A DNA stretch of 37,519 nt from an uncultured Rickettsiales bacterium (lineage in GTDB: Bacteria; Pseudomonadota; Alphaproteobacteria; Rickettsiales; UBA1997): positions 91,557 to 129,075 of the forward strand of contig CAJQHK010000004.1 of NCBI GenBank assembly GCA_905478165.1, written 5' to 3'. The notes under the pieces are model-generated. The model was given only the letters and a program-made list of their open reading frames with translations, ran no database searches and was not told the origin of the DNA. The first letter of the stretch is position 1. Each line of letters opens with the position of its first letter. Positions 24,877 through 26,572 of the stretch are shown piece after piece. The translations under genes and the position numbers were made by a program.

Positions 24877-24891
24877 TATCAAAATCTACAG

Positions 24892-25307
24892 ATGAAACTT
24901 ACCTCAATGAAAGAAAAAATTTTAAATAAATTATCTGATATCGGAGATAAATTAATCTCACTCAGTACAAATACCAATACAGTAATATTTAATTATTCAA
25001 ATTGCTATCTAGGAAGTAATACCAATTCCCACCTTTAAAGAAGTTTTTTTCGAAATATTTTAAAGATGGGAGCTGGTATAATATAACGGGAAAAATAATA
25101 AAAGAATCATTTGGATTGGTTCATCAGACAATTCGTGGTATGGATGATTTAATGAAGTATTTTCTTACAAAAGTACAAAATATAGGAGATAATGCTGTAA
25201 TAAATCTTCGATATCAAGCGGGATCTTATGAGGAAAATGGCTCTAAATGGTATAAATCATATATGTTGATTTATGGTGAAGCGGTTTTAATTGAAAATAT
25301 TATTTAA
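24892..25307 (+). pseudogene. Decayed YbjQ/UPF0145-like heavy-metal-binding-domain gene
   Basis: From 25020 to 25307 one frame is open and its C-terminal part, GMDDLMKYFLTKVQNIGDN then AVINLRYQAG and MLIYGEAVLIE, follows the YbjQ/UPF0145 pattern (helix, GANAVIxxRF, then ATGTAV-like strand). It has no good start, the earliest usable codon being a TTG at 25116. A different frame from the ATG at 24892 encodes about 48 residues (MKLTSMKEKILNKLSD...) and stops at the inverted repeat at 25019-25079. The simplest reading is one gene split by a frameshift at that repeat. An alternative is an unrelated short peptide gene followed by a fragment. Probably non-functional. Confidence 0.5.
25019..25079. 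repeat. 21-bp imperfect inverted repeat at the break in the YbjQ-like gene
   Basis: Bases 25019-25039 and 25059-25079 pair along 21 positions with three non-Watson-Crick positions, one of them G-T. The loop is 19 bases and contains a TTTCGAAA palindrome. Key blocks are CCCACCTTTAAA and TTTAAAGATGGG. It coincides with the change of reading frame, as if an inserted palindromic element disrupted the gene. No T-run follows, so it is not a standard terminator. Confidence 0.6.
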
Positions 25308-25316
25308 AACTGTTAA

Positions 25317-25406
25317 ATAATTTTACTAGAGGTTCGTCTTAAAAAACCTACCAATGTAACCTTAGAAGAATTATCCTATAAAGAATTTGTTATTTTATTT
25401 TTATGA
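25317..25406 (+). other. Possible gene remnant ending in ATGA overlap with the GS-like gene
   Basis: A short open stretch encodes about 29 residues including LEVRLKKPTNVTLEELSYKE and ends with a TGA that overlaps the ATG at 25403. The amino acids look coding-like, but there is no start codon and I recognise no family. It may be the tail of a lost gene that used to be coupled to the next one. Support is weak. Confidence 0.2.
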
Positions 25407-26203
25407 ACAATCTTGAAAAACTACTACAGACCCTTAAAAATCTTGATTTAATTGCGATAATTGGTCTTGAGTGGGAATTTTATCTTTTAGAGAAAAAGCA
25501 ACTATTATCTGAAGAAAAATTAAAGATTTTCTTTCAAAAATTCCTAATTTCTGCCAAAAATCAAAATATTGACACTCTCAAGATTGAAAAAGAACAGGGA
25601 AAGGGGCAGATTGAAATTAAAACCAACCCATATTTAGATATTCCAAAACTTTGTCGAGACTTTCTTTTAATTAAAAAAATAGTTAGAAAAATTTCTTTTG
25701 AAATGAATTTGGAAGCAGATTTTACTGCCCAAAAATATAATGATGATTGCGGTAGTTCATTACAAATTAACCTTAATTTTCTTGATAAAAATAATAAAAA
25801 TTTATTTAACGGCTCATCGGATGATGAAAGTAAGTTATTACTATATTCAATTGCTGGCATTTTAGAGTGTACGCCAAAATTTTTAGAAAATTACATCTCT
25901 TCAAAAGAAGATTTAATTAGATTTGATAAGGATGTAAATATAAAGCTCCATAAATCAGGAAATTATACGGCACCAACAAATCTTTCTTGGGGCTACGATA
26001 ATCGTACTACAGCAATTAGGGTGATTGGTAAAAATGATAATCGAAGATTGGAATTTCGCGTCCCATCTTCAAATTCTTATATTTTTAAAGTGGTCGAGTC
26101 TTTGCTTGAATCTGTCTTGAGTGGAGTAGCAAAAAAAGCATTGCCACAGAAGGCTATCTATGGTAATGCTTTTGAGAGTGACGTAAGTAACTTATATAAT
26201 TAA
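25403..26203 (+). CDS. Short glutamine-synthetase-fold protein lacking the N-terminal domain
   Basis: A 266-residue protein that aligns with the catalytic domain of glutamine synthetase and related glutamate-amine ligases. Counterparts of the metal and substrate residues are Glu23 and Glu25 (GLEWEFYLL), Glu64 and Glu71 (EKEQGKGQIEI), Arg201 and Arg206 (WGYDNRTTAIRV), and Glu217 and Arg219 (RRLEFRVP). The segment that normally reads GSGMHxH is GSSLQINLNF (117-126), so the conserved His is Gln121. The beta-grasp domain that completes the neighbouring subunit's active site is missing and the protein is about 180 residues short. It may be a distinct ligase type or a domain kept for another purpose. 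It converges with the Bor-like gene with a four-base overlap. Confidence 0.75.
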   Translation: MNNLEKLLQTLKNLDLIAIIGLEWEFYLLEKKQLLSEEKLKIFFQKFLISAKNQNIDTLKIEKEQGKGQIEIKTNPYLDIPKLCRDFLLIKKIVRKISFEMNLEADFTAQKYNDDCGSSLQINLNFLDKNNKNLFNGSSDDESKLLLYSIAGILECTPKFLENYISSKEDLIRFDKDVNIKLHKSGNYTAPTNLSWGYDNRTTAIRVIGKNDNRRLEFRVPSSNSYIFKVVESLLESVLSGVAKKALPQKAIYGNAFESDVSNLYN

Positions 26204-26508
26204 TCTTTTTTACAATAAACATTTTCTGTTCTAGGGGTGTATATGCCATAAGTAATAATAGCCAACAAAACATCCGTAAAACTTTGCTTAACCTCAACAA
26301 AATTAACACCATTTGATCTTTTACATAATTCAGAAGCATTACTGTAAGATGTCTGACCTACACCCCCAACAAAAAAATGACTCTTTTCTGAATAATGAGG
26401 ATTAGATTTCGGATACTGTCTAGCATTATTATTATCAACATTAAATCTTTGAGTGGCACAAGATGAAAATAAAAAAAGAACAGATATCAATAATAATATT
26501 TTTTTCAT
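26200..26508 (-). CDS. Bor-like lipoprotein (lambda Bor family)
   Basis: A 102-residue lipoprotein. The signal peptide MKKILLLISVLFLFSSC ends in a lipobox with Cys17 as the lipidation site. The mature part carries the features of the phage lambda Bor family: SHFFVGGVGQ, a conserved Cys in ELCKRS, QSFTDVLLAIITYGIYTP and a final VYCKKD. Bor is an outer-membrane lipoprotein that raises serum resistance in lysogenic E. coli; here the role is unknown. No other phage genes are nearby. It lies 64 bases downstream of the M16 protease on the same strand. Confidence 0.85.
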   Translation of the reverse strand: MKKILLLISVLFLFSSCATQRFNVDNNNARQYPKSNPHYSEKSHFFVGGVGQTSYSNASELCKRSNGVNFVEVKQSFTDVLLAIITYGIYTPRTENVYCKKD

Positions 26509-26572
26509 AATTTTAGTATAAATTTAATAGTAAATAATGTTTTAATTTAGTTTACAAATCTATTGAATCAAG

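Follow-up and report, generated by a model that had tools for sequence, protein, structure and literature searches.

The window analysed here, a 37,519-nucleotide stretch of a contig from an uncultured Rickettsiales bacterium, contains an open reading frame (ORF) that resembles the catalytic domain of glutamine synthetase (GS) but is little more than half as long as GlnA. The locus raises the question whether this gene is the remnant of a full-length GS or encodes a functional protein, and if the latter, what the protein does. A preliminary description, made from the DNA sequence alone, suggested a maintained stand-alone protein, either a new type of glutamate-amine ligase or a regulatory derivative of GS.

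The window encodes a stand-alone GS catalytic domain

The ORF is intact, with 266 codons, and its position, length and strand agree with those given in the preliminary description. We refer to the protein and its short homologs as mini-GS. The gene and the stretch preceding it are as follows.

25403–26203 (+): mini-GS gene, encoding a 266-residue catalytic-domain-only GS-fold protein, plus stop codon; assigned by ORF, Pfam and structural model, and equally long at the sister locus (L061/L002)
24877–25402 (+): 526-bp stretch with no intact gene, preceding the mini-GS gene; contains a 63-residue ORF (25116–25307) of no recognised family

An HMM search, one of the checks proposed earlier, found PF00120 (Gln-synt_C) as the sole Pfam family in the protein (hmmscan, E 3e-34; 119 bits, cut-off 24). 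The NCBIfam GS models matched far under their cut-offs (GlnA, TIGR00653: 72.9 bits against 429), as did the curated amine-ligase family models, among them that for gamma-glutamylputrescine synthetase (NF045547: 36.4 bits against 650). The match to the GCS2/YbdK type model TIGR02050 was not significant (E 0.24). The top single-sequence match in the PDB was glutamate-methylamine ligase.

Structure prediction yielded a confident AlphaFold model (m1cb29087f403; mean pLDDT 93.8, pTM 0.91) with the GS catalytic fold. In a Foldseek search of the PDB, GS catalytic domains were the best matches (8tge, TM 0.86, E 2e-16), and the matches included 1-naphthylamine GS (8wwu) and gamma-glutamylmethylamide synthetase (9qur). 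Both sequence and fold matches were to classical GS, and none were to PafA.

The absence of the N-terminal beta-grasp domain, which carries D50 and S53 in GS, had been proposed earlier and is borne out by both sequence and model. Further parts are missing relative to E. coli GlnA, namely about 40 residues between the ExE motif and E212, and about 60 C-terminal residues. The mini-GS of several relatives (L005–L009, L012–L014, L017) carries an extra N-terminal extension of about 60–100 residues, with a basic/aromatic helix and, in most cases, a short conserved motif like Y-x-I-x-P-x-x-F-Y. The extension was considered as a substitute for the beta-grasp domain, and rejected because, where it spans about 90 residues, it was modelled as a low-confidence helix and disorder.

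The ATP, metal and glutamate sites are conserved, and the ammonium site is absent

In GS, a conserved set of Glu and Arg residues binds the metals, the ATP phosphates and glutamate. Residue conservation was counted in an alignment (A4) of 39 diverse mini-GS members, which share only 27–41% identity with the window protein, with the exception of one sister sequence. The sites concerned are listed below, with E. coli/Salmonella GS numbering in brackets.

25469–25477 (+): E23-x-E25 (E129, E131), end of the GhExE motif, metal/ATP/glutamate site; 39/39
25592–25615 (+): E64 and E71 (E212, E220), n1 metal ligands; 39/39
25763–25771 (+): Q121-x-N123 (H269-x-H271), HxH to QxN switch; both residues fixed in the window's family (20/20)
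25919–25975 (+): R173 (R321, glutamate carboxylate) to P191, enlarged 19-residue flap without E327; R173 in 37/39
26003–26020 (+): R201 and R206 (R339, R344), phosphate-binding arginines; 39/39
26045–26059 (+): R215, E217 and R219 (R355, E357, R359); 34/39, 38/39 and 39/39, respectively

The eight catalytic residues named in the preliminary description (E23, E25, E64, E71, R201, R206, E217 and R219) are indeed retained. All but E217 are invariant in the alignment, and the single exception at the E357 position is a gap in a truncated copy. The position of N264 varies among members. The ammonium-site residues D50, Y179 and E327, as well as S53, are lacking or not conserved across the 39 sequences, and a protein without the beta-grasp domain is unable to build this site in the manner of GS.

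The hallmarks of the GS-fold ligase superfamily are all present. The GhExE motif on core strand 1 corresponds to G21-L22-E23-W24-E25, the acidic residues on strands 2 and 3 to E64 and E71, the [HDQ]x[NH] motif on strand 4 to Q121-x-N123 (HxH outside the window's family, NxH in Wolbachia), and the arginines in strand 5 and the preceding loop to R206 and R201, within the modelled GS catalytic-domain fold. The mini-GS belongs to the superfamily of GS-fold carboxylate-amine/ammonia ligases, and does not pass the tests for a glutamine synthetase proper. Compared with GlnA type I (TIGR00653), it shares the catalytic fold and the equivalents of E129, E131, E212, E220, R321, R339, R344, E357 and R359, but lacks the beta-grasp domain, D50, S53, Y179, E327 and the C-terminal part (266 residues versus about 469), and in the window's family has Q and N in place of H269 and H271.

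The preliminary description treated the replacement of a single His by Gln as the defining trait. Gln121 does occupy the position of H269, but Asn (N123) stands in place of the second His, H271, so that the change is a two-residue switch from HxH to QxN. Q and N are fixed in the 20 members of the window's family, while among the other 19 members each position is His in 18 (Wolbachia wStur deviates at 269, with Asn). Along with the switch, an otherwise invariant Lys (position 110) and the His of 'EHR' (position 218) are lost, and the flap carries a 10-residue insertion: the segment R173–P191 has exactly 19 residues in all 20 Q-type members, compared with 9–10 in most H-type members and 9 in GlnA. 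The motif published for PafA at the same place is [HQ]x[NH] (Iyer et al. 2008, PMC2588565), which QxN fits, and Gln and Asn here therefore need not mean inactivity.

The pattern of retained and lost residues resembles that of the gamma-glutamyl-amine ligases (GlnA3, GlnA4, PauA7, GMAS, PuuA), in which the glutamate and ATP sites are kept and D50, E327 and Y179 are lost. GlnA3, GlnA4 and PauA7, which have these losses, glutamylate amines other than ammonia, and in GlnA3 and GlnA4 the losses accompany activity on polyamines or ethanolamine (PMC5403932, PMC6529630). The flap is altered in the window's family as it is in PauA7 and GlnA4, although theirs is much larger. Unlike the mini-GS, all five of these enzymes are full-length proteins with the N-terminal domain.

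Mini-GS is a core gene of the Rickettsiales

The protein is not peculiar to one locus. Short homologs were found in 42 of the 49 Rickettsiales relatives (33 of the 35 that are at least 90% complete); these short forms are separate from full-length GS (about 470–500 residues), which matches weakly. Within the Anaplasmataceae, 67 of 68 genomes have a match and 66 the short form (the match in G385 is a longer GS frame). The gene is split into two frames in G336 (L117) and in G356 (Neoehrlichia mikurensis, L118), reflecting either recent decay or sequencing error. Among 41 Wolbachia genomes, 39 carry the short form, one of them partial, and 36 lack a Gln-synt_N match; the genus (g264) was taken as Wolbachia because its nine sampled copies are 72–84% identical to the wStur copy. 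Across the class, the top matches from outside the order are full-length proteins.

The phylogeny proposed in the preliminary description was carried out with 79 sequences (quick search, midpoint root). All short forms are grouped to one side of a branch supported at 99% (SH-aLRT), with the window's family nested inside (97%), which favours, but does not prove, a single origin of the short forms. Among named records, the closest is L061, a Rickettsiales MAG (80% identity), and in this sister genome the syntenic mini-GS likewise has 266 residues. A full-length gene of about 450 residues at this locus, which according to the preliminary description would mark a simple truncation, was sought in relatives and not found. 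In the literature searched, we found no paper on this short Rickettsiales family.

Mini-GS is under purifying selection

Comparison of the window gene with its sister gave dN 0.118 and dS 0.329 (dN/dS 0.36), and ten Wolbachia copies gave a median dN/dS of 0.11 over 45 pairs; in Wolbachia, purifying selection on the gene is strong. In-frame stops in Wolbachia fall at the end of the gene, and the sampled frames are intact over 245–260 codons. With short forms throughout the order and dN/dS well below 1, the earlier proposal of a maintained, functional, stand-alone protein is supported.

The DNA of the window at 25600–26520 is mostly 91–97% identical to that of the sister genome (with one 100-bp dip to 79%), compared with about 70–88% for the flanking genes. 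Synonymous divergence amounts to 0.11 over the final third of the mini-GS gene and to 0.13 in the adjacent lipoprotein gene, versus about 1.0 in the M16 peptidase gene, yebC and purD. This segment looks like a recent recombination tract.

The gene neighbourhood does not name a substrate

The neighbourhood had been described as decaying. This holds only in part: the 526-bp stretch at 24877–25402 has no intact gene, but the remaining surroundings are densely coding. The stretch separates an alpha/beta-hydrolase gene from the mini-GS gene, and trxA occupies its place in the sister genome. The 63-residue ORF within it recalls YbjQ by eye, and has no Pfam or PDB match. Downstream, the window and sister genome share the order Bor-like lipoprotein, M16 peptidase, yebC and purD. 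The Bor lipoprotein family is known from phage lambda. The lipoprotein gene (26200–26508, − strand; PF06291, E 6e-20) is convergent with the mini-GS gene and overlaps its stop codon by 4 bases.

The mini-GS gene is immediately preceded by a thioredoxin gene in 12 of the fetched loci, all from the window's family as judged by protein similarity, and xseB is present in 9. The window lacks this arrangement, and the trxA of its genome is on another contig (C19). In other loci an MFS transporter gene (G028, L074, L075) or pstC (Ehrlichia) stands upstream. No constant partner gene was found across the fetched loci, and the context therefore fails to name the acceptor; assignment of a function from the neighbours was rejected, the thioredoxin/XseB arrangement being limited to one family and other genes taking its place in others. 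A link to phage or defence was likewise rejected: PADLOC gave no hit, a single unnamed PHROG has the length of GS, and viral fold matches comprised only weak amidoligases.

Mini-GS is probably independent of GS, glutathione and Pup systems

Of the 42 carriers, 16 have no Gln-synt_N protein, and 11 of these genomes are at least 90% complete. In G028 (100% complete) and the two Wolbachia genomes tested, no PF00120 protein other than the mini-GS was found. Many other Rickettsiales carry both mini-GS and a real GS. In the window's genome, the only Gln-synt_N protein is a 351-residue GlnII-type GS (L097:1164–2219, − strand, contig C10), which scores under the GlnII cut-off (439 versus 500 bits) and replaces the 470–500-residue GlnA of many relatives. 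The occurrence of carriers without another GS and of carriers with a separate one indicates that the mini-GS neither needs a GS partner nor is a simple spare, and a role as partner of GlnA was rejected.

The upstream thioredoxin, together with GshB, raised the idea of a gamma-glutamylcysteine ligase for glutathione synthesis. The idea was rejected because such an activity would be unnecessary: the window's genome has its own GshA (PF08886), as do nearly all GshB-bearing relatives, and mini-GS also occurs without GshB. PF04107 was not found in the window's genome. No Pup homolog (PF05639) scored over the cut-off among the 49 relatives, and a pupylation-like system was likewise rejected. The mini-GS shares with PafA/Dop and GCS2 the GhExE motif, the acidic strands 2 and 3, [HQ]x[NH] and the arginine fingers, but has no significant sequence match to them. 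Glutathione synthesis and Pup ligation are both unlikely, as are a truncated gene and dependence on GlnA.

Discussion

The invariant ATP, metal and glutamate residues, together with the missing ammonium site, point to a glutamate-amine ligase as the likeliest class, in line with one of the two earlier suggestions. We consider it probable that the mini-GS is an order-wide, ATP-dependent glutamate-amine ligase reduced to its catalytic module, with an open acceptor site. As a Rickettsiales-specific stand-alone GS-fold ligase, it would bind ATP and two divalent metals in a cradle formed by E23, E25, E64, E71, E217, R201 and R206, with Q121 and N123 replacing two His residues. E25, E64, R173 and R219 would hold glutamate, or a glutamyl compound, by its alpha-amino and carboxylate groups. 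Phosphorylation of the gamma-carboxylate would give an acyl phosphate open to attack by an amine larger than ammonia, which may enter by the side left open where the beta-grasp domain of the neighbouring subunit is lost. Since the beta-grasp domain and the C-terminal ring-forming parts are gone, a monomer or small oligomer is expected instead of a dodecamer. We infer catalysis, glutamate as the substrate, an amine acceptor and this oligomeric state; loss of the subunit-interface parts could have removed catalysis as well. Also against this reading stand the low scores with family models of known amine ligases, the variability at the N264 position and the lack of a conserved neighbour that would name the acceptor.

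The acceptor, or the glutamate donor, might instead be a macromolecule, as for PafA, with the open face serving a protein or peptidoglycan-type substrate. We regard such a protein or peptide ligase as unlikely, though ahead of the readings that follow. Q121-x-N123 fits the PafA motif (PMC2588565), the site is uncovered by beta-grasp domain or neighbouring subunit, and the gene is universally conserved without a metabolic partner; however, no Pup homolog scored over the cut-off in the 49 relatives, the protein matches classical GS and not PafA, and no small-protein neighbour is conserved save thioredoxin and XseB, in one family only.

It is improbable that the mini-GS is a minimal but true GS that uses ammonia, with other residues replacing D50 and E327, and that substitutes for the lost GlnA in Wolbachia. 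Most Wolbachia genomes do have mini-GS and no Gln-synt_N, and a GS was reported in one Wolbachia genome paper (PMC5068953), but D50, S53, Y179 and E327 are all absent, and many Rickettsiales, like the window's genome with its type II enzyme, keep a separate GS. From its profile, the GS reported for Wolbachia is probably the mini protein.

We give similarly little credence to a GS derivative without catalytic activity that serves in regulation or binding, such as a sensor of 2-oxoglutarate, glutamate or ATP. That the parts closing the active site are gone would suit this second of the earlier suggestions, but the Glu and Arg residues for phosphotransfer and metal binding are invariant or nearly so, which binding alone does not need, and the idea is further weakened by the 16 relatives with the short protein and no Gln-synt_N and by the genomes in which it is the sole GS-fold protein. 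Finally, decay of a full-length GS gene to a truncated form or pseudogene, to which the upstream gap and a C-terminus shorter than in some relatives might point, is highly improbable given the same-size syntenic sister, the order-wide short forms, the low dN/dS and the lack of a full-length gene at the locus, and is already refuted for the family.

The mini-GS is kept in nearly all sampled Rickettsiales, including Wolbachia genomes of only 0.7 Mb, and likely has a needed function. It is an unusually small GS-derived catalytic module, and offers a natural test of GS chemistry without the ring. Claims of GS-based ammonia assimilation in Wolbachia may be founded on the mini-GS, which is without the features required for ammonia use. 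A more speculative proposal, to which we assign a minor probability, is that beta-grasp-free GS-fold ligases across the Rickettsiales add glutamate to a macromolecule or to some other acceptor not yet recognised. If true, a core function of obligate intracellular Alphaproteobacteria would have been hidden so far under the label 'glutamine synthetase'.
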